DNA from: Caballeronia sp. SEWSISQ10-4 2
GTDB lineage: Bacteria > Pseudomonadota > Gammaproteobacteria > Burkholderiales > Burkholderiaceae
Length of the DNA: 64,000 nucleotides
Reading direction: 5' to 3'
Assembly: GCF_030464885.1 (NCBI RefSeq)
Contig: NZ_JALPRJ010000017.1
Span: forward strand, 62,001-126,000
Shown here: positions 5,556-50,051 of the stretch, in pieces
Numbering within the stretch: the stretch's first letter is position 1
How the letters are laid out: each line of letters opens with the position of its first letter
The notes under the pieces: generated by a model
What the model was told of the DNA's origin: nothing
Database searches by the model: none
Seen by the model: the letters and a program-made list of their open reading frames with translations, nothing else
Made by a program: the position numbers and the translations under genes

Positions 5556-6110
5556 ATGCTGTTCGAGATCATCAACCCGTCTGACCCGTACACCGTTGTC
5601 GCCGAGGACAAGGAAATCGCGGCCGTTGCTTGTGTCGTGCTCGGCGCCGGCAGCTACGCGTTCCGCCCGATCGACGGCGGCGAATTCGAAGTGCCCTTGT
5701 TCCTGTTCGGCCGGCACGCAGAATGGTTCAAGGCGACTTTCGACGCCACGACCACCGAAGTTATCGACCGCGTTATGGATGCGCGTCGCGCCGAGCTGGC
5801 GGATTGCCTGGACTCGGTTCTCTACGGCGACGCGGAAATGCGCGCCCGGTTCGAGTCGGACACCGCGAACGACACGCCGAAGCAGCGCTATGCCGCGAAG
5901 CTGGCGTTCCAGAAGCAAGCCAGCTCGCTTAACGACATCGGCATGAACGCGTATCGCACCGCCGTGCAGCTTCGGGGTTCGCCGACGGACGTTACCCCGC
6001 CGTTGCCGACCTCCGCGCCGGCCCACGTTCCGCCGGCACCGGAAACGCCGATCACCGAGGAAGAACGAGCCGCCATTCTGGCTAACTTGAAACCGCAGCA
6101 ATCCGATTAA
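5556..6110 (+). CDS. Hypothetical phage protein, 184 aa
   Basis: A clear AGAGGAG site precedes the ATG. The product has a globular N-terminal part (about 1-130), then a Pro/Ala-rich linker (about 140-165) and a short charged tail. It was not recognised. It is cotranscribed with the two small membrane proteins before it. Confidence 0.6.
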   Translation: MLFEIINPSDPYTVVAEDKEIAAVACVVLGAGSYAFRPIDGGEFEVPLFLFGRHAEWFKATFDATTTEVIDRVMDARRAELADCLDSVLYGDAEMRARFESDTANDTPKQRYAAKLAFQKQASSLNDIGMNAYRTAVQLRGSPTDVTPPLPTSAPAHVPPAPETPITEEERAAILANLKPQQSD

Positions 6111-6174
6111 AACGCTTTAGCACTACACCATGCCGCACCACATAGCACCAATCCATACTAAACGGAGAATCACC

Positions 6175-6993
6175 ATGAAAAAGCAAATCGCACTGGCAGC
6201 ACTGGCACTGGCACTGATCGGCAACGCGAACGCCGGAATCTTCGACGGCCCGCAAGGCCCGAAGGGCGACACGGGCGCACAAGGCCCGAAGGGCGAGAAA
6301 GGCGATAAGGGCGCGACTGGCGCAGCGGGCCGCGATGGCATCGACGGCAAGAACGGTATCGACGGCGCCGCCGGCCGCGACGGCATCGACGGCACGCATG
6401 GCACCAACGGCACGAACGGTATCGACGGCCGCAACGGCGTGGATGGCACGAACGGCCGCGACGGTATCGACGGCACGCACGGCACCAATGGAACGAACGG
6501 TGTTGACGGTGTGGCCGGAAAGGATGGCGCAGCAGGTTCGAACGGTGTTGACGGGGCCAAGGGAACGGACGGAGTGAACGGGACCGCTGGCGAGGCTGGC
6601 ACGGCCGGCAACGATGGCGCGAACGGCACGGATGGGAACCACGGCAAGGACGGCGCCGTGGGTAAGGACGGCGCGCAGGGCGAAACCGGCGCCGCCGGCC
6701 GCGACGCAGTAGTGCCAAAGTTCGACGGCGTATCCCGCGCCGACTTCGACTCGTTCAAGAAAGACACCTACGGCGGCATTGCGAACGTCCTGGCTATCGC
6801 CGGCTTGCCGCAGGCCACGGCGCCGGGCAAGAGCTTGGTTGGCGCCGCAGTCTCCACGTACCACGGACAGCAGGGTTTCGCTGTCGGCCTGTCGCACGTC
6901 ACGAGCGACAACCGTTTCGTGCTGAAGGCAGGCGTTAGCACGAGCACGCGCAGCGACTTCGGCGCAGCGATCGGCGCCGGCTACCAGTTCTGA
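6175..6993 (+). CDS. Collagen-like repeat protein with YadA-type membrane anchor
   Basis: The 272-residue protein has a signal peptide ending in A-N-A, then about 160 residues of near-continuous Gly-X-Y triplets rich in GRDGID, GTNGTN and GPKGD units, a short coiled linker, and a final 75 residues matching the YadA anchor (Y-G-G-I-A-N-V-L-A-I-A, P-G-K-S-L-V-G-A-A-V-S, repeated amphipathic strands, terminal Phe). YadA anchors trimerise in the outer membrane, and a collagen triple helix is also trimeric. The product is therefore a likely trimeric surface stalk shown by the lysogen. The ATG at 6175 follows a GGAG and starts the signal peptide cleanly. Confidence 0.8.
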   Translation: MKKQIALAALALALIGNANAGIFDGPQGPKGDTGAQGPKGEKGDKGATGAAGRDGIDGKNGIDGAAGRDGIDGTHGTNGTNGIDGRNGVDGTNGRDGIDGTHGTNGTNGVDGVAGKDGAAGSNGVDGAKGTDGVNGTAGEAGTAGNDGANGTDGNHGKDGAVGKDGAQGETGAAGRDAVVPKFDGVSRADFDSFKKDTYGGIANVLAIAGLPQATAPGKSLVGAAVSTYHGQQGFAVGLSHVTSDNRFVLKAGVSTSTRSDFGAAIGAGYQF

Positions 6994-36743: not shown

Positions 36744-36779
36744 CTAACCGCTGTGCCGCCCCAAGCCAAAGGAAGCCCC

Positions 36780-39700
36780 ATGCCGAAGAATTTATTGCTG
36801 CAAACGCCGGACGCTGGCGATGTTGCCGACCTGTTCACCCAAGCCGCGAGCGACATTCCGCGCTTCGAAATGCCCGCCTTCCCCGGCACGGCCGCGCCAA
36901 GTGCTGCGCCTGCCCCTGCACCATCTGGCCCGATCCAAACCGCATCGCAACCCGCACCGGCACCGGCCACGCCCGGCGGCCGCGCCGCGCCTACGCACGG
37001 CGACCTGATCGCGCGCGCGAAGGCACTCGGCATTGACGAAGGGCTCGCAACGTCCATCTTCGGCGTGGAATCGTCCGGCAACTGGAACAGCAAGGATTCG
37101 CCGAAAGGCGCGGTTGGCGGCATGCAGGTTATGCCGGACACGTACAAGCAGATGATGGGGACGTACTCGGGCCAGCGCGATCCGTGGAACAACATGGAAG
37201 CGGGCTTGCGCTATCTGCAATACGGCATGAAGACGCTCGGCACGTCGGACCCTTCCCTTTTGGCGGCCGGCTATCAGGCGGGCTACGGCAACAAGGACGT
37301 GCGCGCCGGCAAGCTGCCGACGAACGTATCGGACGGCAACCTGACACCGGCACAGTACGCGGCGAAGGTCGCAAAAGGCGGCCTGACGGGCGACATCACG
37401 GAAGGCGGCCGCTATAAGCAGCTCACGCCCGAGCAAGCGGCACAGATGGAAGCGGACGCGGGCGAGCCCGGCCGGTTCAAGGCGCTCACGCCTGACGAGC
37501 TGGAAAAGCTGCCGGCGAGCGCACTGGTTGACGGCGCGCAGAAGAAAGACGGCGAAGGCTGGTGGAAGCGCAATCTCGGCCACCTTGGGACCGATGCAAA
37601 AGTGGGCTGGAACAACCTGCTTTCGTCGATCGACGGTATCAAGCAATCGGAATCGGCCGATATGCTTGACCTGTTCACGAAGCGTTATTCGCAGGACCAG
37701 ATCAACGCCGATCCGAAGCTGCAAGCCGAGTTTGCCGCGCGCGCGAAGGATTACGCCGATGTCACGAAAAAGATCAAGGACCGTGGCGAGGAAAACTCCA
37801 AGCTGAATAAGGAAGGCGGCCGCGCATCCACGAACGAATTCCTTGGCTTGAGCGAAAACGCCAAGTGGGATATGCCGACCCTGAAGGCGATCGGCGCCGC
37901 CGTGGTGAAAGACCCCGTTGGCGTTATCGCCGACTTGGGCGTGCAATCCGGCCCGCAGATGATTGCCATGATGGCGGCCGCCGTTCTCGCACGCGGGGCC
38001 GGCACGGGCGTAGGCGGCGCAGCTCTGGCGGGCGGCGCCACGTCGGGCTTTCTGCAATTCGGTTCCGACTATTCCGACTTGCGCGAGCAAGGTATGTCGC
38101 ACGACGAAGCGTTCAAGACGGCGGCCGCGAAAGCATCCGTTGTCGGCGCGCTCGATGGCGTTTCGATGGGCTCGGCCGGCCATGCGCTCGATGTCGTCAT
38201 GGCAAAGAGCGGTGGCAACAAACTGCTTGGCATCGCAAAGAAGGCCGGCACGATCGCGGCCGAGACTGGCAAGCAAGGCGCGCTCGGGATGACGGGCGAG
38301 GCTGGCGGTTCGCTGGCATCCGGCCGCACGCCGAACCCGGTTGACGTTGCAGCGGAAGGGCTCGGCGAAATCGCTGGCGCACCGTTCGAGGCAATCAGCA
38401 TGAAGTCGGGCAAGCCGAAGGCCGCGCCCGCGCCTGCTGTGCCGCCTGCCGGTACGGTGGCAACTGGCCCGGTTACGCCTGCTGCGCCGCCGGCCGCGCC
38501 GGCCGCTCCCACTGGCCCGATTGGCACCGCAGTAGCAGCCGCCGGCCTGAATCCGCAACCGGCACCGGCCGCGCCTGCTGCACCGGCCGCGCCTGCCGGC
38601 GGGAAGGCCGTGGTAGTGCCTGGGGATGATGGCTCGCAATACACCGTCACGAGCGGCCCGCAAGGTTTGAGCGTGACCAAGATCGACCCGGAAACCGGCG
38701 AGATCATCGCGGACACGCCGACGCCTGCCGCACCGGCCGCGCCTGCTGCCACTGCGCCGGCCGAACCCGCGAAGCCGGCCGTCGAGCAGGCCGCGCCGAT
38801 CGCGGACGAACCGCTCTATCAGCAAGCCGTGGACATCGTGCGCGCAGGCGACACGGGTTCTATCTCGCTCGTGCAGCGTCAATTGAAGATCGGCTACAAC
38901 CGCGCCGCGCGCCTCCTCGAACAGATGGAAGCGGATGGCATCGTGTCGGCGCAGACGCCGGACGGTAAGCGCACGGTCCTGAAAGGTGAGAAGAAACAGG
39001 AGGCGGCCGCGCCTGCCGAGAAGCCGGCCAAGGTGGACGTAGCGGGAATGTCTGACGCGGACCTGACCGGCCGCAATGAATACCTGTCGGAACAAGCGAA
39101 GGCGAACGGCGGATGGAACAAGGTTCTCACGGGGGAACGTCGCCGTGTGCTTGCCGAGATCGACCGCCGGGCAAAAGCCGCAACCAAGGAGGCAACGAAT
39201 GTACAGGCCGCCACTGTCGGCGCAGGTAGCGTCAATCCTAATGCACAAGCTGACGTTCAATCTGAAGCATCTAAACCCGGTAGCACGGTCGCTGCGAATC
39301 CGGTTCCTGCTAACCCTGTCGCCACTGGTAAGCCAGCGGAAACACTGAGCACCGAGCTTGCGGGCGCCAAGCCGCGCTATGCGTTCGGCTCCAAGCAATT
39401 CGACCTGTCGTTTGATAGCGATATCGACCGCGCCGCGTACATCACTGCGCAGAAGAACCCGAGCAAGCGCGATGCGGACTTCGTGAAGTTCGTTACCGAT
39501 GCCACGGGCATGACTGAGGAGCAAGTTCGCGCCCACGGCGCCGCAGTGCGCGAGAACATCAAGGGCATGGCCCGCGACGCGGAACCCGGCATGCTGAAGG
39601 TTCCCGCTGTCGAGCGCGGCGCCGCGCCGGCCGCACCGGAAAGTGCCAAATCTGGCACCGACCTGACCGATATCGCCGACCGTTGGTCCCGTGCCACGAC

Positions 39701-42700
39701 GGCCGAGCGCGCCGCGATCCTCGGCGATGCGAAGCTCTCGGACTCGCTGGCATCGCGCGGTTTCGACAAGATCGAGGGACCGGGCCAGCAACGCATTGCG
39801 AAGGCCATGCGCTCGCGCGAAACCACGGCGCCGGCCGTCGAAGCTACGCCCGACATTGCCGCCGGCAAGTGGTTCGGCTCGCAAGAGAAGGCTGACGCGT
39901 TCGTGGCGAAGAAGAAGCTCGGCGAATCGCATAGTGTGGTGCAGACCGGTAAGGTGCGTTTCGAGATCAAGCCGAAGGCGGCCGTCGAGATCGACGCGGC
40001 CGCGCACGAAGCGCAGACCAGCCAGAACAACGACTTGCCGGCGCCGACTCAGGCGCAGATCGAGGCAGGCAATTACAAGAAGGGCCACGTCAATGTGCAA
40101 GGGCTCGATATCACTGTCGAGAACCCGCAGGGCTCTACCCGCTCTGGCGTGGCCGAAGATGGCACCGCATGGTCTAGCACTATGTCTGACCACTACGGCT
40201 ACGTGCGCGGCACGGAGGGTGCGGACGGCGATCAAGTGGACGTGTACGTGGGCGCGAACCCTGACGCCGAGCGCGTGTACGTCATTGACCAGATCGACCA
40301 GAAGACCGGCAAGTTCGACGAGCACAAGGCCATGATCGGCTTTGACTCGAAGGAAGCCGCAACGGCCGCGTATAGCAAGAATTTTGATGCAGGTTGGAAG
40401 GTTGGCGAAGTGGCCGATATGTCGATGGCCGACTTCAAGACGTGGCTGAAGGAAGGCGACACCAAGGCGCCGGCCGTCGATCCTGACGCGCCGACGTTCA
40501 CCGACGCCTACCGCCTCGCGGTGAAAGACCCTGAAGGCAAGACGCTGAAGGGCTGGCAAGAGATCGGCGAGAACGCGGACGGCGACAAGGTATATGACAC
40601 GGTTGGCATTCGTGCCGTGAAGACTGGTGACTACGTTGTGAAGGAAGTCGCGCACATGCCGAAGGGCCAGCGCGTCGCCGAGTTCAACACCGTTTCCAGC
40701 ACCCTGGACCACAACCTGTCCCCCGAGCACGGCGGCATCACGCGCCGCGAGTCGATCGATCAAGACATCGCGGACGGCAAGACCACGCTGAAAGAATTCA
40801 AGTCTAAGGAAGGCGTGAAGTGGTGGGAGCTGTCGGAAAAGGGTAGCAAGGCGCCCGCCTCCCTCCTCAACAATCAGGAGCAAGCGGACTATGCCCGCGA
40901 GCAAATCGCCAAGCTCGGCGTGGCCCAAGCCAAAGCGGCCGCACCGAAGAAGCCGGTAACGGTGAAGAAGGTTTCGGAAGGCATCACGGCTATCGTGATC
41001 GACCCGAGCGCAGCGAACGACGGTGCGAAGCCGAACGGAACGGACCCGTTTGCAGGTAATACCCTGTTCACGTCGGACAAGGTAGCGGCCGCACGCGACC
41101 GCCTGAAGAGGAAGCTCGGCACGCTGAACAGCGGGTTTGATCCCGAGCTGGTAATGGACGGCATGACCATCGCAGGCGCATACATCGAATCGGGCGTGCG
41201 CTCGTTCTCGGACTATGCGGCCGCCATGACCGCCGACATCGGCGAGTCGGTAAAGCCCTACCTCCTGTCGTTTTGGGAAGGCGCGCGCAACTTCCCCGGC
41301 CTGAACACCGATGGTATGACCAGCGTAGCGGAATCCAAGAAAGCGCATGACGCTCTCATTGCAAAGCAACCTGTATCGCCTACAATCGAATCGGCAACCA
41401 CGCCTGAAGGAATCCAAAATGAACGACTCGCAACTCAGGAGTCTCCTGCTGGAAGCGATGCAGGAGTACGCGCCGCAAGCACTCGCGCAGATGAAAGCGC
41501 GGGGCCATCTGAATCCGTATCTGGACGAGCTGATGGGTCAGACGTTGCAGGCGATCAACGATCCCATGCAGGAAGCAACGATCGGGCTCGTGACGCAGGG
41601 AAGCGAGACGTTCGAGCCGAACCCGCTGAAGCGCGTGCAGAAGATCAACATGGCGACCAACAGCGCAACGGAGATAGCGCTCGCGCAGGCAATGGAAACG
41701 ATCAAGGCGCTAAGTCCCGAGTCGGCAGTGACTACCGCATCGGACCCGGAAGCCTGAAGCGTGAAGGTTCTTGGCGTGCTACGGCTACGCGGAACGTCGA
41801 TGCTGTAGAGCTGGCGATCAAGCTGACCGCAGAGAACCGCGCGCCGACGCCGGACGAACAGGCGCAGCTCTCGAAGTTCACTGGTTGGGGTGCATCCGAG
41901 ATCGCTAACGGCATCTTCCCGGATAAGTACGGCCGCTATAAGGACTCGACTTGGCAAGCGCTCGGCGAACGCCTGAAGGCCGCGCTCACGCCGGAACAGT
42001 ACGACACGGCCAAGCGGACCACGCAGTATGCGCACTACACGTCGGAAGGCATCATCACGGGTATCTACGGCGCCATGCGGCGCATGGGTTTCGGTGGCGG
42101 TAAGCTGCTTGAGCCCGGCATGGGCGTGGGCTCGTTCAAGGGCTTGATGCCTGCCTCGATGGCGGCCAGCTCGCACTACACCGGCATCGAAATGGACCCG
42201 ATAACGGGCATGATTGCGAAGCTCCTCTACCCTCAATCGAACATCATCAATGGCGACTTCACGAAGACCGCGCTCCCGCGCGATTACTTCGACGCCGCGA
42301 TCGGCAACCCGCCGTTCGGCCAGATCACCATTAGCAACGATCCCGAGTATCGGAAGAACAGCTTCCTGCTGCACGACTATTTCTTTGCGAAGACGCTGGA
42401 CCGCGTGAAGCCGGGCGGCATGCTGGTGTTTGTCACGTCCAAGGGCACGATGGACAAGGGTTCCGACCGTGCGCGGACCTACCTCGCCGAGCGCGCGAAT
42501 CTGGTTGGCGCCGTGCGCCTGCCGCAGACCGCATTCAAGGACAACGCCGGCACTGAAGTTGTGACCGATGTTCTGTTCCTGCAAAAGCGCGGCAACGGTG
42601 TAGAGGACAACGGCGTGAAGTGGCTGGACACGGCCGAAGTGACCACGCCGCAAGGCCCGACCAAGATCAATGAATACTTCGCGGCGCACCCCGAGCAAGT

Positions 42701-45700
42701 GCTTGGCGCTCACGCGCTCTCGGGCTCGATGTACCGCATGAACGAGTACACCGTGGTTCCCGAGCCGGGCGTCAATCTCGATGAGGCATTCGCCAACGCC
42801 GTGGCCCGCCTGCCGGAAAACATCTACAAGGCCGGCGCGAAGAACCCGCAGGCCGCCAAGGCACAGGCGCTGCAACGCGACTTCAACCCGCTCAACAAGA
42901 AGGAAGGCGGTGTTTATGTCGGCCAGGATGGCGCCCTTATGCAGACGGACAACGGTTCGGGCGTAGCACTCGAATCCCGGCGCGGCGCCGATGGTAAAGA
43001 GATCGCGCTCAAGCCGAAGGAAAAGGAATTCCTGAAGTCGTGGGCGGGCTTGCGTGACTCGCTGAAGCTAGCGCAGCTCGACCAGCTCACCAACGGCGAT
43101 TGGGAGAAGTCCCTTGCCGCGCTGAACGCGACCTACGATGCGTTCGTGAAGAAGCACGGCAACATCCTCGACTTCTCGACCATCACGCGCACCGACGACG
43201 AAGGAAACGTCACGGAAACCAAGCGTTTTAAGAACGATCCGCTCTTGCGCCTGGACGTCGATGGCCCCCTCGCCTACTCGCTCGAACACATCACGCCTAC
43301 CGGCGAGATCGTGAAGGCGCCGGTATTGTCCGAGCGCGTGCTCGAACAACCGCGCGAGGCCGAGATCAAGACGACGAACGACGCGCTGTTCGTTTCCATG
43401 AACAACCTTGGCAAGCTCGACCTCGACGACGTTGCGAAACTCGGCAGCATGACGCGCGCCGAAGTTATCGAAGCGCTCGGGACCGCGATCTACGAAGACC
43501 CGGCAAAGGGCTGGCAGACGAACGATGAATACCTGTCGGGCAACGTCGTGCGCAAGCTGAAAGAAGTCGAAGCGGCCGCCAAGACCGACAAGCGTTTCAA
43601 GCGCAACGTCGATGCGCTCCTCGCGGTGCAACCGAAGCCGCTTGGCCCGACCGATATCACGGTGAAGCTCGGGCAGAATTGGGTTCCGCCGAAAGACATC
43701 GTTAAGTTCGCAACCGAATCGCTCGGCGAGCAGATCGACGTTTCGTATAGCGAGCGCACCGGCCAGTGGTCCACCGAACAGTCGGGCTCGAACATGAGCG
43801 CGTTCAACGGCCCGCGCATGAACGCCGGCATGATCCTCGAAAACGTGCTGAATAATAAGCAACTGAAGATCACCTTCCGCGATCAGGACGGCAAGACGCA
43901 CGTTGACGCCGAATCCACGGAGAAGGTGAACGACATCGCCAACAAGATGCGTGCGGCCTTCAGCTCGTGGATTTGGACGGACACGGCCCGCGCTGACCGG
44001 CTCGTTAGCTACTACAACGAACACTTCAACAACATCGCGCCGCGCCAGTTCGACGGCTCGCACCTGACGTTGCCGGGCGTGTCGATGCGCTTCGACCTTC
44101 GCGCGAACCAGAAGCGGGCTATCTGGCGCGCGATCCAGCAGGGAGACACGTACCTTGCTCACGCCGTGGGCGCCGGCAAGACGTTTGAAATGATCGCCAT
44201 TGGCATGGAGGAGCGCCGGCTCGGGCTCTCGAACAAGCCCATGTACGCGGTCCCGAATCACATGCTGGCGCAATTCGCCCGCGAGTTCTTGGAGCTTTAC
44301 CCGGCCGCCAACATCATGGTTGCGGACGAGCAGAATTTCCACACGCACAACCGCCGGAAGTTTGTCGCGCAAGCCGCGCTGAACAACCCTGACGCGATTG
44401 TTATCACGCACTCGGCGTTCGGCCGCATCGGTATGTCGGACGAGTTTGCATCGAAGTTCATTTCTGACCAGATCGCCGAGTGGCAAGCCGCGCTCGACGA
44501 AACGGACAAGGGCGACCGCATCACGCGTAAGCAGATCGAGAAGCGCATCGAGCAATTGGAGCGCCGCCTCGAATCGCGCCAGTCGGCCGAGAAGAAAGAC
44601 CGCGTAATGTCGTTCGAGGAGCTTGGCGTGGACCGCCTGCTGGTGGACGAAATCCACGAGTTCCGTAAGCTCGACTTCGCCACGAACCAAGGCAACATCA
44701 AGGGCATTGACCCGAACGGGTCACAGCGCTCCCTCGACCTGTACATGAAGAAGACGTACCTCGACCAGAAGAACCCCGGCCGCGCGCTCGTGGGTGCATC
44801 CGGCACGCCGGTAACGAACACGATGGGCGAGCTGTTCACGGTGCAACGCCTGTTCCAAGCCAAGCAGCTTGAGGAAGACGGCCTTCACAACTTCGATGCG
44901 TGGTCGAACCAGTACGGCGACATCGTTGCAGGGTTCGAGCAGAACGCGGCCGGCGGGTACGAGATCGTCTCGCGCTTCGCCAAGTTCCAGAACGTTCCCG
45001 AGCTGATGCGCCGAGTTCGCTCGTTCATGGACATTCTCACGTCGCAACAGCTCTCGCAGTACGTCGAGCGTCCGAACGTCAAGACCGGCGGCCGCGAAGT
45101 GAAGGTTACGCCCTCGCCTTTCGGCTACAAGGAATATCAGAAATCGCTCGAGTCGCGTATCAATGCGATCCGTGCGCGCAAGGGACCGCCGAAAAAGGGT
45201 GACGACATCATCCTGAAGGTTATTTCCGACGGCCGGTTCTCCGCTATCGACATGCGCTTCGTCGATCCGACCGCGCCGAGCGACCCGAACAGCAAGCTGA
45301 ATCAAATGCTGGCATCGGTCGCGGCCGACTACCACGCATCCGCCGACTTCGAGTATTCGACGAACGGCAAGATCGACGCCAACAAGGGCGCCTCGCACAT
45401 CATTTTCACGGACATAGGGCTCGGCGAGCAGTCCGCCGAAACGCGCGGGTTTGATATGAAGGCGTGGATCGAGCACGCCCTTGTCGAGGCCGGCGTGAAG
45501 CGCGAGCACATTGCGTTCGTGCGCGACTACAACACGCACGCGAAGAAAGAACGCCTGTTTGCCGCAATGCGCGCGGGCGACAAGCGCATCATGATCGGCG
45601 GCAAGGATATGGAAACGGGCGTCAACGTCCAAAAGCGCCTGTACACCGAGGAGCACTTGGACGCGCCGTGGTTCCCGGCATCGGTCGAGCAGCGCGAAGG

Positions 45701-48700
45701 CCGCATCATCCGCCAGGGCAACCAAAACAAGGAAGTCGGCATTCGCGCCTGGGCGACCAAGGGCAGCTACGACGCAACCATGTGGGGCATGAACGCCCGC
45801 AAGGCGCGGTTCATCGAGCAAGCGCTGACCGGCGACGATAGCGTGCGCTCCCTCGAAGACGTGTCCGAAGCCTCCGCGTTCGATATGGCGGCCGCTCTGG
45901 CGTCGGGCGACGAGCGTTACATGAAGCTCGCCGGCCTGAAGGCGGACGTTGAACGTCTGGACCGCCTTGCGCACGCCCACCACGACGAGCAGAACAAGCT
46001 GCGCCGCGATAAGAATTACGCCGAGTCCCAAATCGAGCACGATCAAAAGATCACGGACGAGCTGACGGAAGCACTGACGAAGGCCAAGCCGATCCGCGCG
46101 GGCGAGTTCTCGGGCAAGGTGGGTAATGTCACGATCGAGGACCGTGCCGAGTTTGGGGGCGCCGTGTTCAATCGCTTCAAGGAGCTGGCAGAGAAGGAAG
46201 CGGACACGTCCGAGCAGATCGGCGAGATCGGCGGTTTCCCGATCATGTACCACGGCATAACGCTGAAGGGCTCGGGCGAATACAACGCCGCTGTCACCAT
46301 CGACATTCCCGGCGACCCGAACCCGATCATTTCCCTGCCGCTCGACCCGGATTTGCCGATCGGCGGCATTGCGACGCGCGCAGCGAATCAGGTGAACAAC
46401 CTCGAAGGCCAGCGCGCGCAGCTCGCCGAGCGTATCAAGATCAACGGCAACCGCCTGAAGGGCATCAACGGCCGGCTTGGCGCCGTGTTCCCCGAGCAAG
46501 CGATGTTGCTCGAAAAGGTTGCCGAGCTGCACAACCTGCAAGACGAGCTGACGAAGGAAAAGACGGCCGAGAACGCGCCGGCACCGTCCGCTGACGCGGC
46601 GGCCGCAACGGTCGATATCGAAGGCAAGGAGAAATTCAGCACGGCACCGGTCGAGCAGGAAAAGACCGGCACGGCCGCCGAGCAATTGGACGCGAGCTTG
46701 CGCGAAGGCCAGTACGGAGACTTCGCCGGCAAGCTGATCGATGCCGGTAGTGTGGTGCTGCACGATACCGCACTAACCCTCCCGACCGAGAACGGCGCCG
46801 GGCGCCAGGGTATGACGACGGAAGACGGCAAGATTCACCTTGTTGCCGATCAGCTCACGCCGCAAAGCGCGGCCGCCGTTCTGCTGCACGAGGCTTTCCA
46901 CTCTGGCGGCAAGAGCCTGATGAATGAAGCGGCATGGACGGGCTTGCTCGGGCGCCTCGAAGCGCTGATGAACCAAGGGCGCCAGTCCGGCGGCCGCGCG
47001 CGCGAGTTCTACGACAAGGCCCGCGCCAGCGTGGAAGCAGCAAACACGCCGGCCGACCAGCGCGCCGAGGAGTTCGGCGCCTACGTGATCGAGCACTTCG
47101 AGCAGGCTCCGCGCGTGTTCCTCCGTTGGGCGGATGACGCGGCCGGCGAGATCAAGGCATGGGTTCTGCGCAAGTTCGGCAAGCAGCTCGGCGCCGTCAC
47201 GCCGGCACAGCTCCGCGCTCTGGCCGTTGCCGCGCTGCGCGATGGTCGCGTAGGCACAAACGGCCCGCAGGGTGGCACGCGCTTCTCGACGCCGACCACC
47301 GGCACCCCGCCGGCAAACAGCCTGACGCCGGCCGCGCCTACCTTTTTCGAGCGCCAGCAGGCCCGCGCGCAGAACAACATGAACCGCGTGAAGAAGGTTC
47401 AAGAGCGCATCGCGGAACTGACGGGCGCACCGATCGAGGAACGCGCCGATTACTACCAAGCCGAAACGAACCGGCCGGGCCGCATCGCTGCGCGCAAGGA
47501 TGACGCCGAGGCTCATATGTTCAAGCCGCTGATGAAGGCGCTGAAGAAAACCGGGTTCAAGCCGGATGACCTCGCCGACTTGCTTCACGCTGAACACGCG
47601 GTAGAGCGCAACGACGCAATCGCGCGCATCAACCCGGATATGCCGGACGGTGGCTCGGGCATGACGAATGCCGAGGCTCACGCCATTCTCGTGAAGTACG
47701 CGAACGCAACCGAGCTGAAGGCTATCGCGCAGAAGGCACGCGACATCGCCAAGGCTACCCTTCAGCTCAAGCTGAACTACGGCCTGATCGATCAACAGAC
47801 GTTCGATACGATCGACAAGGCATACGCGAACTACGTGCCGCTGAAGGGCGACGGCGAGTATGGTCCCAAGGTAAAGCGGGCGATGGGCCACAGCTCGCGC
47901 GACGAATACATTCTGGAAAACATCGCGCGCGACTACGATCAAGTCATATCGAGCGGCGAGAAGAACCTCGCACGTCAATTCCTCCTCGCGCTCGTGGCCG
48001 AAAACCCGGATGACGACCTCTGGACCATCGGCGTGCCGCCGAAGGGCCGCTACATCGCCGGCCGCGTGTACAACGTGGTCGATACCGGCCCGCTCGGCGG
48101 CAAGACCGGCAAGACGGTAGGCTCGTTCACGTCGCAATCTCAGGTGAATGCTTTCCTCGAAGGGCTTGGAGCGCACGCCCGCGCCAACTACACCGTGCTC
48201 GACTCGAACGGCGATCGTGTGGCCGAGTTCGTCAAGCCGTTGCAGGAAAACGAGGTAATGGTCTACGTGGACGGCCAGCCGGTTCGCATCCAGATCCACG
48301 ATTTGCCGCTTGCCGCGCAGCTTCGCCCGCTCGACAACGCGCAGATGCACCCGATCCTCGAAGCCATGCGGACCATGAACCGCTACTTCTCGAAGATTTA
48401 CACGGGCGCGAACCCGGCATTCATTCTGCGCAACGCGATCCGCGACTTCGGCACGGGCTCGGTGAACATGGCCGGCCAGTACGGCGCCGCGACGATGGCA
48501 AGCGCCTGGAAGCACTACCCGATGGCGTTCAAGTCTCTCGGCCAGTGGGCGGCCACGGGCAAGGCGCCGGCCGGCAAGATGGGGACGTACCTGACGGAAT
48601 ACCGCATGCAGGGCGGCAAGACCGGCGCATCGTGGATGAGCGACCTCGACGCGCATGGCAAGAACCTGACGGCCATGTTCGAGGACGCATACGGCGCGCG

Positions 48701-50051
48701 CGGTTTCCTGAAAGACGGCATGAAGGGTAAGGCCGCCGTCGTGGCCGGCCGCAAGATCGTGAGCGGCCTCGCGCACGTCTTCGAGATCGGCAACCAAGCG
48801 GCCGAAAACGCGATGCGTCTCGGGCTCTATGCCACGCTGCGCGACAAGGGCGAAACGCCGGGCAAGGCAGCAGCGGCCGCGAAGAACGTCACCGTTGACT
48901 TTGACCGCAAGGGTTCGACCACGAGCGCGCTCGGCGCAATCTGGCTGTTCTTCAACCCGGCCATTCAAGGTACGTCGAACGCGTTCAAGACCATCCTGAA
49001 GGGCGACCACAAGGTGCAGGGCATGGCAGCACTCGGCATGCTCGGCGCGCTCGGGTTCATGACGGCCGCTGGCGGCATGGATGATGATAAAGACGAATGG
49101 CTCGGGACCGCTTGGAGCATGCGCACCAAGAATTTCCGCATGCGCATCGGCAGCAAGACCTTGCAGGTTCCTGTGTCTCAGGAATTCGCGCCGATCTACG
49201 CTATGGGTGTTGGCCTCGCCGAATTGACGCGTGGCATTAGCCCGATGAAAACGACGGCGCGGATGGTATCGAGCTTTATCGATGCCTACTTCCCGCTGAA
49301 TGGCATCTACGACGCGGATAGCGACAACCACAAAGCAGACATCGCGGCCGCCGTCACGCCGACGATTGCCAAGCCCTTCGCCGAGCTGGCAAACAACCGC
49401 AATTCGTTCGGCAACAAGATTGTTCCCGAGAACGAGCACGCACCGAACACGCCCGCGAACCTGAAGAAATACCGTTCGAGCGAAGGCTCTGTCTACGATG
49501 ACATCGCGCAGGCGACGGCGAAGGCTGGCGAGTTCATCGGCATGAAGCCCTACCAAGACGACATCACGAAGGTGAGCCCCGAGACGTTGAAACACCTTTG
49601 GCGCTCGTATGCCGGCGGCTTGGGTCAGTTCGTGGCGGATATGGTTGGCATCGGCAAGCTGGCAGTCACCGAGCCGAGCGCGATCGAAGCCAAGGATATG
49701 CCGTTCGTGCAGGACTTCGTTAAGGATCAAACGATGGGCGCTCTGCGCTCGCGCTACTACGACGTTACGGCCGAGTCGAAGGCGGCACGCGAGGAGCTGA
49801 TGCTTGCGAAGAAGGCGAAAGACCCGGAAGCGATCACCGAGGTTGCGACGCGCGAGGGTAACGGTATCTTGATCGGTACGGCCAAGGTGGCAGACAAGAC
49901 CACGAAGACGCTCTCAACGATCCGGGAAATGGAGGTTGCTATCCAGAAGGATAAAACCCTGTCCGTGGGCGAGCGTCGCGCCAAGCTGAAGGAAAACGAG
50001 GCATTGCAGCAGCAGATCATTCGCAACGCCTTGGACGTCATCCAGCGCTAA
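36780..50051 (+). CDS. Giant polyvalent virion protein (4423 aa) of Bcep22 gp75 type
   Basis: One frame of 4423 residues. Regions seen: lytic transglycosylase (about 80-185, catalytic Glu97 in G-V-E-S-S-G); Gly/Ala hydrophobic helices (about 375-540); Pro/Ala linkers; an FtsK-gamma-like winged helix (676-736, Q-R-Q-L-K-I-G-Y-N-R-A-A-R); pyrophosphatase-like domain (1095-1231); N6-methylase with L-E-P-G-M-G-V-G near 1777 and N-P-P-F near 1843; SNF2-like helicase (Walker A Lys2467, D-E-I-H 2623-2626, Q-R-E-G-R about 2971); H-E-A-F-H metal site (3370-3374); LPD38-like C-terminal part (about 3860-4300). Known relatives are virion-associated and thought to protect or help entry of phage DNA. The ATG at 36780 follows AAGGAAG. 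Confidence 0.85.
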   Translation: MPKNLLLQTPDAGDVADLFTQAASDIPRFEMPAFPGTAAPSAAPAPAPSGPIQTASQPAPAPATPGGRAAPTHGDLIARAKALGIDEGLATSIFGVESSGNWNSKDSPKGAVGGMQVMPDTYKQMMGTYSGQRDPWNNMEAGLRYLQYGMKTLGTSDPSLLAAGYQAGYGNKDVRAGKLPTNVSDGNLTPAQYAAKVAKGGLTGDITEGGRYKQLTPEQAAQMEADAGEPGRFKALTPDELEKLPASALVDGAQKKDGEGWWKRNLGHLGTDAKVGWNNLLSSIDGIKQSESADMLDLFTKRYSQDQINADPKLQAEFAARAKDYADVTKKIKDRGEENSKLNKEGGRASTNEFLGLSENAKWDMPTLKAIGAAVVKDPVGVIADLGVQSGPQMIAMMAAAVLARGAGTGVGGAALAGGATSGFLQFGSDYSDLREQGMSHDEAFKTAAAKASVVGALDGVSMGSAGHALDVVMAKSGGNKLLGIAKKAGTIAAETGKQGALGMTGEAGGSLASGRTPNPVDVAAEGLGEIAGAPFEAISMKSGKPKAAPAPAVPPAGTVATGPVTPAAPPAAPAAPTGPIGTAVAAAGLNPQPAPAAPAAPAAPAGGKAVVVPGDDGSQYTVTSGPQGLSVTKIDPETGEIIADTPTPAAPAAPAATAPAEPAKPAVEQAAPIADEPLYQQAVDIVRAGDTGSISLVQRQLKIGYNRAARLLEQMEADGIVSAQTPDGKRTVLKGEKKQEAAAPAEKPAKVDVAGMSDADLTGRNEYLSEQAKANGGWNKVLTGERRRVLAEIDRRAKAATKEATNVQAATVGAGSVNPNAQADVQSEASKPGSTVAANPVPANPVATGKPAETLSTELAGAKPRYAFGSKQFDLSFDSDIDRAAYITAQKNPSKRDADFVKFVTDATGMTEEQVRAHGAAVRENIKGMARDAEPGMLKVPAVERGAAPAAPESAKSGTDLTDIADRWSRATTAERAAILGDAKLSDSLASRGFDKIEGPGQQRIAKAMRSRETTAPAVEATPDIAAGKWFGSQEKADAFVAKKKLGESHSVVQTGKVRFEIKPKAAVEIDAAAHEAQTSQNNDLPAPTQAQIEAGNYKKGHVNVQGLDITVENPQGSTRSGVAEDGTAWSSTMSDHYGYVRGTEGADGDQVDVYVGANPDAERVYVIDQIDQKTGKFDEHKAMIGFDSKEAATAAYSKNFDAGWKVGEVADMSMADFKTWLKEGDTKAPAVDPDAPTFTDAYRLAVKDPEGKTLKGWQEIGENADGDKVYDTVGIRAVKTGDYVVKEVAHMPKGQRVAEFNTVSSTLDHNLSPEHGGITRRESIDQDIADGKTTLKEFKSKEGVKWWELSEKGSKAPASLLNNQEQADYAREQIAKLGVAQAKAAAPKKPVTVKKVSEGITAIVIDPSAANDGAKPNGTDPFAGNTLFTSDKVAAARDRLKRKLGTLNSGFDPELVMDGMTIAGAYIESGVRSFSDYAAAMTADIGESVKPYLLSFWEGARNFPGLNTDGMTSVAESKKAHDALIAKQPVSPTIESATTPEGIQNERLATQESPAGSDAGVRAASTRADESAGPSESVSGRADGSDVAGDQRSHAGSNDRARDAGKRDVRAEPAEARAEDQHGDQQRNGDSARAGNGNDQGAKSRVGSDYRIGPGSLKREGSWRATATRNVDAVELAIKLTAENRAPTPDEQAQLSKFTGWGASEIANGIFPDKYGRYKDSTWQALGERLKAALTPEQYDTAKRTTQYAHYTSEGIITGIYGAMRRMGFGGGKLLEPGMGVGSFKGLMPASMAASSHYTGIEMDPITGMIAKLLYPQSNIINGDFTKTALPRDYFDAAIGNPPFGQITISNDPEYRKNSFLLHDYFFAKTLDRVKPGGMLVFVTSKGTMDKGSDRARTYLAERANLVGAVRLPQTAFKDNAGTEVVTDVLFLQKRGNGVEDNGVKWLDTAEVTTPQGPTKINEYFAAHPEQVLGAHALSGSMYRMNEYTVVPEPGVNLDEAFANAVARLPENIYKAGAKNPQAAKAQALQRDFNPLNKKEGGVYVGQDGALMQTDNGSGVALESRRGADGKEIALKPKEKEFLKSWAGLRDSLKLAQLDQLTNGDWEKSLAALNATYDAFVKKHGNILDFSTITRTDDEGNVTETKRFKNDPLLRLDVDGPLAYSLEHITPTGEIVKAPVLSERVLEQPREAEIKTTNDALFVSMNNLGKLDLDDVAKLGSMTRAEVIEALGTAIYEDPAKGWQTNDEYLSGNVVRKLKEVEAAAKTDKRFKRNVDALLAVQPKPLGPTDITVKLGQNWVPPKDIVKFATESLGEQIDVSYSERTGQWSTEQSGSNMSAFNGPRMNAGMILENVLNNKQLKITFRDQDGKTHVDAESTEKVNDIANKMRAAFSSWIWTDTARADRLVSYYNEHFNNIAPRQFDGSHLTLPGVSMRFDLRANQKRAIWRAIQQGDTYLAHAVGAGKTFEMIAIGMEERRLGLSNKPMYAVPNHMLAQFAREFLELYPAANIMVADEQNFHTHNRRKFVAQAALNNPDAIVITHSAFGRIGMSDEFASKFISDQIAEWQAALDETDKGDRITRKQIEKRIEQLERRLESRQSAEKKDRVMSFEELGVDRLLVDEIHEFRKLDFATNQGNIKGIDPNGSQRSLDLYMKKTYLDQKNPGRALVGASGTPVTNTMGELFTVQRLFQAKQLEEDGLHNFDAWSNQYGDIVAGFEQNAAGGYEIVSRFAKFQNVPELMRRVRSFMDILTSQQLSQYVERPNVKTGGREVKVTPSPFGYKEYQKSLESRINAIRARKGPPKKGDDIILKVISDGRFSAIDMRFVDPTAPSDPNSKLNQMLASVAADYHASADFEYSTNGKIDANKGASHIIFTDIGLGEQSAETRGFDMKAWIEHALVEAGVKREHIAFVRDYNTHAKKERLFAAMRAGDKRIMIGGKDMETGVNVQKRLYTEEHLDAPWFPASVEQREGRIIRQGNQNKEVGIRAWATKGSYDATMWGMNARKARFIEQALTGDDSVRSLEDVSEASAFDMAAALASGDERYMKLAGLKADVERLDRLAHAHHDEQNKLRRDKNYAESQIEHDQKITDELTEALTKAKPIRAGEFSGKVGNVTIEDRAEFGGAVFNRFKELAEKEADTSEQIGEIGGFPIMYHGITLKGSGEYNAAVTIDIPGDPNPIISLPLDPDLPIGGIATRAANQVNNLEGQRAQLAERIKINGNRLKGINGRLGAVFPEQAMLLEKVAELHNLQDELTKEKTAENAPAPSADAAAATVDIEGKEKFSTAPVEQEKTGTAAEQLDASLREGQYGDFAGKLIDAGSVVLHDTALTLPTENGAGRQGMTTEDGKIHLVADQLTPQSAAAVLLHEAFHSGGKSLMNEAAWTGLLGRLEALMNQGRQSGGRAREFYDKARASVEAANTPADQRAEEFGAYVIEHFEQAPRVFLRWADDAAGEIKAWVLRKFGKQLGAVTPAQLRALAVAALRDGRVGTNGPQGGTRFSTPTTGTPPANSLTPAAPTFFERQQARAQNNMNRVKKVQERIAELTGAPIEERADYYQAETNRPGRIAARKDDAEAHMFKPLMKALKKTGFKPDDLADLLHAEHAVERNDAIARINPDMPDGGSGMTNAEAHAILVKYANATELKAIAQKARDIAKATLQLKLNYGLIDQQTFDTIDKAYANYVPLKGDGEYGPKVKRAMGHSSRDEYILENIARDYDQVISSGEKNLARQFLLALVAENPDDDLWTIGVPPKGRYIAGRVYNVVDTGPLGGKTGKTVGSFTSQSQVNAFLEGLGAHARANYTVLDSNGDRVAEFVKPLQENEVMVYVDGQPVRIQIHDLPLAAQLRPLDNAQMHPILEAMRTMNRYFSKIYTGANPAFILRNAIRDFGTGSVNMAGQYGAATMASAWKHYPMAFKSLGQWAATGKAPAGKMGTYLTEYRMQGGKTGASWMSDLDAHGKNLTAMFEDAYGARGFLKDGMKGKAAVVAGRKIVSGLAHVFEIGNQAAENAMRLGLYATLRDKGETPGKAAAAAKNVTVDFDRKGSTTSALGAIWLFFNPAIQGTSNAFKTILKGDHKVQGMAALGMLGALGFMTAAGGMDDDKDEWLGTAWSMRTKNFRMRIGSKTLQVPVSQEFAPIYAMGVGLAELTRGISPMKTTARMVSSFIDAYFPLNGIYDADSDNHKADIAAAVTPTIAKPFAELANNRNSFGNKIVPENEHAPNTPANLKKYRSSEGSVYDDIAQATAKAGEFIGMKPYQDDITKVSPETLKHLWRSYAGGLGQFVADMVGIGKLAVTEPSAIEAKDMPFVQDFVKDQTMGALRSRYYDVTAESKAAREELMLAKKAKDPEAITEVATREGNGILIGTAKVADKTTKTLSTIREMEVAIQKDKTLSVGERRAKLKENEALQQQIIRNALDVIQR
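41419..41757 (+). CDS. Candidate overprinted gene inside the giant ORF, 112 aa
   Basis: In the +1 frame relative to the giant gene, an ATG behind GAAGGA (7-base spacing) opens a 112-codon frame. It encodes a helical, globular-looking protein (L-L-L-E-A-M-Q-E-Y-A-P-Q-A-L-A-Q-M, L-D-E-L-M-G-Q-T-L-Q-A-I). Over the same bases the giant protein reads as a low-complexity Arg/Asp/Ala/Gly/Ser linker between its pyrophosphatase-side domains and the N6-methylase, as expected when the other frame is the constrained one. The family and function are unknown. It could also be a chance frame in GC-rich DNA, but the ribosome site and the composition contrast argue against that. Confidence 0.55.
   Translation: MNDSQLRSLLLEAMQEYAPQALAQMKARGHLNPYLDELMGQTLQAINDPMQEATIGLVTQGSETFEPNPLKRVQKINMATNSATEIALAQAMETIKALSPESAVTTASDPEA

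Follow-up and report, generated by a model that had tools for sequence, protein, structure and literature searches.

Can the disordered linker of a giant phage gene owe its character to a second gene written over the same bases? The question is raised by a window of 64,000 nucleotides from Caballeronia sp. SEWSISQ10-4 2 (NCBI RefSeq assembly GCF_030464885.1, contig NZ_JALPRJ010000017.1), in which a DarB-like polyvalent gene contains, directly before its N6-methylase region, an open frame in the +1 phase. A first-pass annotation, made from the sequence alone, had proposed this frame as an overprinted gene and had supposed that the linkers of related giant proteins may hide unannotated genes as well. 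From the comparison of related sequences, we put the probability that 41419-41757 is a real, conserved and selected gene, nested in the +1 frame of the giant gene, at roughly 0.88.

The giant gene and its linker

The giant open reading frame lies on the forward strand, as do all features below unless stated, and encodes 4432 aa from a GTG (36753..50051); judged by eye, the ATG at 36780 is the likelier start. Pfam matches in the giant protein include an SLT transglycosylase domain (37011..37295), an Eco57I-type N6-adenine methylase (42258..42506, residues 1836-1918; 27.6 bits, cut-off 25.3) and an LPD38 domain (49095..49709; 100.2 bits, cut-off 27). FtsK-gamma and pyrophosphatase also match above the cut-off, and Helicase_C (16.2 bits) and SNF2 (14.7 bits) both remain below theirs. 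On its 5' side, the linker is preceded by a conserved giant-frame segment (41079..41360) with 65-73% identity across the 14 other loci compared. On its 3' side, before the methylase, lies a segment with a GWGAS motif (41790..41960, borders approximate and set by eye), which we call LPD36-like by motif and position only, following the accessible parts of PMC5512222.

The linker itself, i.e., the giant frame as read across the nested gene (41421..41753), is weakly conserved and, judged from its composition, disordered, with 91% of its residues being G, R, D, S, T, N, Q, E, K, P or A. Over the shared bases, bulky hydrophobic residues make up 7% of the giant frame versus 28% of the nested frame, which bears out the contrast between a linker-like and a protein-like reading that the first-pass annotation had drawn. 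Across the nested gene, the giant frame is stop-free in 30/30 related loci tested, a count that cannot be read as a product of independent chances because the loci are related; synonymous shuffles of the nested gene leave the giant frame open in 6-81% of cases per locus (9% in the window). This openness speaks for translation of the giant frame across the nested gene.

On the reverse strand, 36792-41417 holds an open frame of 1541 codons antisense to the giant gene, for which the codon usage at high GC probably accounts.

The nested frame and its start

The nested gene (41419..41757) runs from ATG to TGA with both its start and its stop inside the giant ORF, encodes a predicted TnpV-like helical product of 112 aa in the +1 frame, and occupies a stretch in which the third frame is closed. 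A Shine-Dalgarno sequence, GAAGGA (41406..41411), stands 7 bases before the ATG, as the first-pass annotation had described it. In the ORF listing, the longest form opens further upstream, at ATG 41347, and would give 136 aa. At three related loci (L016, L017 and L018), the frame is interrupted by a stop two codons upstream of the equivalent ATG, and we therefore favour 41419 over 41347 as the start. For the same reason, internal initiation is the likely route of expression and frameshifting is unlikely at those loci. The Shine-Dalgarno sequence and the position of the start are conserved among relatives. For 25 nested starts, a set that includes some near-duplicates, the median duplex energy is -7.9, compared with -2.9 at 1000 other ATGs in the phase of the nested ORF (p=1e-13).

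The length of the open frame carries no evidential weight. When the giant gene was shuffled 500 times among synonymous codons, the 112-codon stretch stayed open in 68% of the shuffles, and 81% of them contained at least one +1 run of at least 142 codons. The case for a nested gene must therefore rest on comparison.

Selection on the two frames

Comparison of the window with loci L006, L001 and L002 gave identities of 79, 55 and 58% for the nested protein, of 64, 45 and 42% for the linker and of 62, 44 and 47% for the third frame. Identity does not discriminate the frames in distant pairs, as shown for nested, linker and third frame by the window and the same-genus genome G017 (34, 34 and 33%) and by L006 and G017 (36, 34 and 39%), and for nested and linker by the window and L009 (34% each); between the window and L011, the nested frame (25%) falls below the linker (34%) and the third frame (35%). 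Stops or a lack of conservation in the nested frame, alongside a conserved linker, had been named beforehand as the outcome that would speak against the gene. Among close relatives the opposite was seen, with the nested frame open, its ATG and Shine-Dalgarno sequence conserved, and its protein better conserved than the linker.

The position of substitutions within codons gives a clearer division. In the near flanks, the most variable base is giant position 3, and over the nested ORF it is giant position 1, i.e., nested position 3. Giant position 1 leads in all three thirds of the ORF in Lessievirus (8 sequences), Pavtokvirus (3) and Lastavirus (2), with a small lead in two thirds in Lessievirus (0.23 vs 0.19 and 0.25 vs 0.21); when G017 is added to this group, position 2 leads the middle third (0.28 vs 0.27). 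Beyond -600 on the upstream side, variability of the Lessievirus linker is too high for any codon position to lead clearly. Scans of the whole giant gene flagged the two nested windows together with one hypervariable window (40662-40899) for the pair window-L006, and the two nested windows together with two hypervariable ones (from 38637 and 40548) for window-L007.

Over the nested ORF, the overlap-aware dN/dS of the giant frame is 0.87 in Lessievirus (interval 0.64-1.21). Nine windows downstream of it give 0.07-0.34, and the two windows on the upstream side give 0.24 and 0.61. In the Pavtok group, the giant-frame ratio over the nested ORF is 0.71, versus 0.01-0.17. The comparison of rates in both frames that had been proposed at the outset thus finds giant-frame constraint lost over the nested ORF. 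The ratios of the nested frame are 0.57 (Lessie), 0.20 (Pavtok) and 0.06 (Lasta), and are to be read against their flanks: the Lessie value is barely under its flanking windows (0.59-1.06), the Pavtok flanks, where changes are few, extend from 0.11 (one window, below the nested value) to 5.76, and the Lasta flanks are mostly undefined or zero. The argument is therefore carried by the loss of constraint in the giant frame and by the position pattern.

Base composition and codon usage were also informative. In the window, GC at nested-phase positions 1, 2 and 3 is 0.62, 0.41 and 0.79, and the giant frame downstream has 0.62, 0.42 and 0.82. Codon-usage log-odds per codon over the nested ORF are +0.261 in the nested, -0.286 in the giant and -1.117 in the third frame. 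Over its length, the nested frame is the dominantly selected coding frame.

Distribution among phages

By tblastn, the nested frame was found in 8 of 50,697 phage records, which represent five distinct Burkholderia phages (57-60% identity), and in two viral contigs. Two of 199 genomes carry it, its own included; in the other, G017, it is 32% identical and again in the +1 frame of a giant. At all eight loci examined, the frame is open, the ATG is in place and the stop falls within five codons of the same point. With the nested protein of Pseudomonas phage Itty13 as the query, 21 phage records were retrieved. Six more distant phages (PEp14, Itty13, 8P, Mwe-JY07, USP_18 and Pavtok) also have an ORF in +1 ahead of the methylase, where the giant again reads as a similar linker. 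The tblastn and HMM searches that the first-pass annotation had suggested therefore extend the family well beyond Burkholderia phages.

The small protein was used to fetch 107 loci, some contigs of which are the same phage. At 101 of these, a large ORF (400 codons or more) covers the nested protein, which is in its +1 frame each time and never in +2. The remaining six (L031, L105, L115, L116, L121 and L125) have no such large ORF over the nested domain; when 26 loci were tested for a methylase match, exactly these six gave none. In two of them, from Pseudidiomarina (L115, ~5971-6762; L116, 5974-6762), the domain occurs without a giant ORF over it or an adjoining methylase match, and in L116 it forms the start of a 262-aa protein. 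Six further loci (L123, L124 and L126-L129), of which four belong to Verrucomicrobia MAGs, have a large ORF that begins only 35-49 codons upstream. In L123, L124 and L129, a QLSLF or QLELF motif, reminiscent of a sliding-clamp motif, stands at the opening of this methylase ORF, just before the nested gene (about 5907-6010).

To avoid choosing loci by the small protein, we also fetched them by the methylase, taking the best 80 of 357 relatives for one query and the best 80 of 335 for another. A small ORF positive by HMM (E < 0.01) was present at 73/80 loci in the first sample and 62/80 in the second (135/160), every one in +1. The two samples have no methylase cluster in common, and at 70% identity they form 75 clusters, 64 of which have a positive. 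The HMMs drew in part on these same phages, and each methylase query was taken from a carrier, so that these rates are valid for this clade and not for all DarB proteins. In P1 darB, no nested ORF occurs within the first 1500 nt, and the HMMs gave no match.

The HMM-negative loci are varied. In the first sample, all seven also hold +1 ORFs at this place, which by eye are kin at most. The second sample leaves 18 negatives: six contain an ORF resembling the one in phage 8P, L256 and L262 show a TnpV-like pattern by eye, and five (L221, L229, L233, L240 and L273) have their highest GC at giant position 1; L246 comes without upstream sequence and L243 was left out of the display. No nested gene was found at L253, L254 and L255, and the two of these that were displayed, L253 and L254, also have no disordered linker. 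The 8P-type proteins constitute a second nested family in the same place (L012, L241, L251, L263, L266, L268 and L272; MQ.LYKP...AIEIANRW..GWP) and are barely similar to the TnpV-like ones.

A homology-free phase test on the 300 nt before the methylase could be measured at 153/160 loci. It picks +1 in 66/77 and 65/76 loci of the two samples (131/153) and fails to show +1 in 22/153. In the controls inside the methylase, it picks the giant phase in 153/153 and +1 in 0/153, and in the upstream controls it picks the giant phase in 267/278 and +1 in 11/278. Taken with the HMM counts, these results uphold the supposition that linkers of related giants hide genes.

Fold and family of the product

AlphaFold2, supplied with 64 sequences, predicts a helical fold for the window product with a pLDDT of 91.8 and a pTM of 0.79, the last dozen residues being loose, in agreement with the folded helical protein that had been anticipated. 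The model of the Pavtok-type product, whose alignment also held sequences of the first type, reaches a pLDDT of 80.3 and a pTM of 0.59; its first two helices and the start of its third are predicted nearly as in the window-type model. By profile, the two families match over residues 1-51 (P 3.5e-5, probability 72%). A structure search with the models of the nested products gave no fold match above noise.

TnpV (Pfam PF14198) is the family that most relatives match, at E values up to 1: 8/12 relatives in one set (best E 0.0035), 20/25 in another (best 1.2e-4) and 6/8 further members, of which L170 alone passes the cut-off (28.3 vs 27 bits). The window protein scores 12.6 bits against a gathering threshold of 27 (E 0.14), tied with an unrelated family. 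We consider the nested product likely to be a distant relative of TnpV, and do not file the window protein as a member.

Annotation and literature

None of the 23 phage records viewed over the locus, which cover 18 phages, lists the nested ORF as a gene of its own. In Sinorhizobium phage PBC5, the nested frame forms the tail of the giant's upstream half (L020, 6733-7309): the two share a frame and terminate together, and the methylase half begins in the other frame, through either a natural split or a sequencing error. In other sequences, gene callers have picked the small gene up. Two protein searches returned relatives of 104-122 aa, 5 in one and 16 in the other, most of which lie on short contigs; one of them is an NCBI hypothetical protein of Citrobacter farmeri.

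Family models are already affected. The last part of the PHROG 938 'endolysin' profile, positions 2084-2173 of 2185, is the nested domain, and the profile is matched by the nested proteins of L010, L011, L013 and L015. This tail is perhaps due to PBC5-like entries, in which case nested ORFs would be mislabelled. The annotation of L011 (phage Itty13, 1776-10263) places three hypothetical proteins antisense to the giant gene and leaves the giant gene itself out, which is likely a mis-annotation.

Among the titles and abstract openings that the paper searches listed, none describes the nested gene. The passages available from the JC1 paper (PMC9144972) and the CSP3 paper describe the giant gene and do not mention the nested one.

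Discussion

We interpret 41419-41757 as a gene whose protein would be made from the mRNA of the giant through internal initiation. At high GC, a linker rich in G, R, D and A might open the +1 frame by composition only, with conservation of the frame simply following that of the DNA. The many shuffles in which the stretch stays open fit this, as does another ORF in the same phase (45464-45841), whose protein is also 60-69% conserved across 8 loci although its codon positions behave as giant-coding. Substitutions over the nested ORF, however, concentrate at nested position 3 with giant-frame constraint lost, the Shine-Dalgarno sequence and start are conserved, and the phase test finds +1 at most loci, so that composition is hardly credible as the whole explanation. 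Programmed frameshifting, by which the upstream giant half would gain a TnpV-like C-terminal tail with no internal initiation, could draw on PBC5 (L020/L048), where upstream half and nested domain share a frame, and on the end of PHROG 938. But PBC5 is one phage with a possible sequencing error or natural split, the stop two codons before the nested ATG in L016, L017 and L018 leaves almost no room to shift, and a Shine-Dalgarno sequence stands at that ATG; we regard frameshifting as very improbable.

Two other alternatives concern the giant chain and the relative age of the two frames. The giant product might not be one chain, the methylase half restarting after the nested gene and the linker being never or rarely translated, which would suit a linker that looks non-coding by codon usage (-0.286 per codon). 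The uninterrupted giant frame at the related loci, set against the shuffles, makes this improbable; the giant product is present in JC1 virions according to the passages available from PMC9144972, a finding compatible with more than one chain. The small gene might also be the newer, born by overprinting in an existing disordered linker, in favour of which stands a linker composition that leaves +1 open in most shuffles. We think it unlikely, given the distant kinship with TnpV, which is a family of separate genes, a linker conserved like an unused frame in close pairs, and the lack of a disordered linker at the gene-less loci L253 and L254, with P1 DarB showing neither.

Our preferred reading would also place the small gene first, its kinship with TnpV and the character of the linker making it the likelier elder. 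The giant ORF would have arisen when upstream virion modules were joined to a methylase-helicase, and the joint may have run through the other frame of the small gene, making the linker the overprint. The term 'overprinted gene' in the first-pass annotation was thus apt as to a nested gene in a shifted frame, and probably reversed as to direction. The nested product may be a co-made partner of the virion-carried methylase-helicase, i.e., an escort, a packaging aid or a cofactor, although such a role is a tentative guess by analogy with the P1 helpers, not by homology. The full account, in which across a large superfamily of phage DarB-like proteins virion modules were fused to an LPD36-methylase-helicase via an older TnpV-like gene that was kept nested, its product being a dedicated partner of the injected enzyme from the same message, seems possible at somewhat less than even odds.

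The locus looks like two genes fused across a third that was kept, with the protein linker a by-product of another gene's code. Many phages carry this gene family, and no phage record viewed annotates it separately, because it sits inside one of their largest genes. The nested gene is also a new candidate component for DarB-type antirestriction, the P1 version of which works with several helper proteins.

Comparison with known systems

The role of TnpV in Tn4451 excision is only postulated in the part of PMC3158075 available, and unlike TnpV the window protein is encoded among phage virion genes and inside the frame of another gene. DarB-like polyvalent proteins, in the accessible parts of PMC5512222, have an LPD36-methylase-helicase order, to which our host gene, with its helicase matches below the cut-offs, would correspond, here joined to virion modules; the words 'overlap' and 'TnpV' gave no hit in the text of that paper. 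In P1, Ulx and DdrB are listed as aiding the localisation of DarB or its addition to the capsid (PMC9024508, in part). Ulx is likewise a small protein encoded beside a DarB gene, but from a separate gene, and the likeness would be one of function; profile comparison found no similarity between Ulx and the nested protein (probability 0.67%).

Among nested phage genes, the Rz/Rz1 pair has a known role in lysis, and both of its frames encode functional proteins. Embedded Rz/Rz1 spanin genes are present in the same phages, according to passages of PMC9144972. The nearest idea in print, as far as the available parts of PMC11855218 go, is the ShiLan-type hidden HNH, likewise an out-of-frame gene in a phage DNA methylase gene whose host frame is left open. 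ShiLan is described there as a homing insertion with a disjoint distribution that encodes an HNH nuclease, and no HNH family appeared among the Pfam hits of the nested proteins. As for empty sites of the ShiLan kind, 73/80 and 62/80 methylase loci carry the nested gene and L253-L255 lack it. Unlike ShiLan, the nested gene occupies one place and one frame in most loci of two methylase samples.
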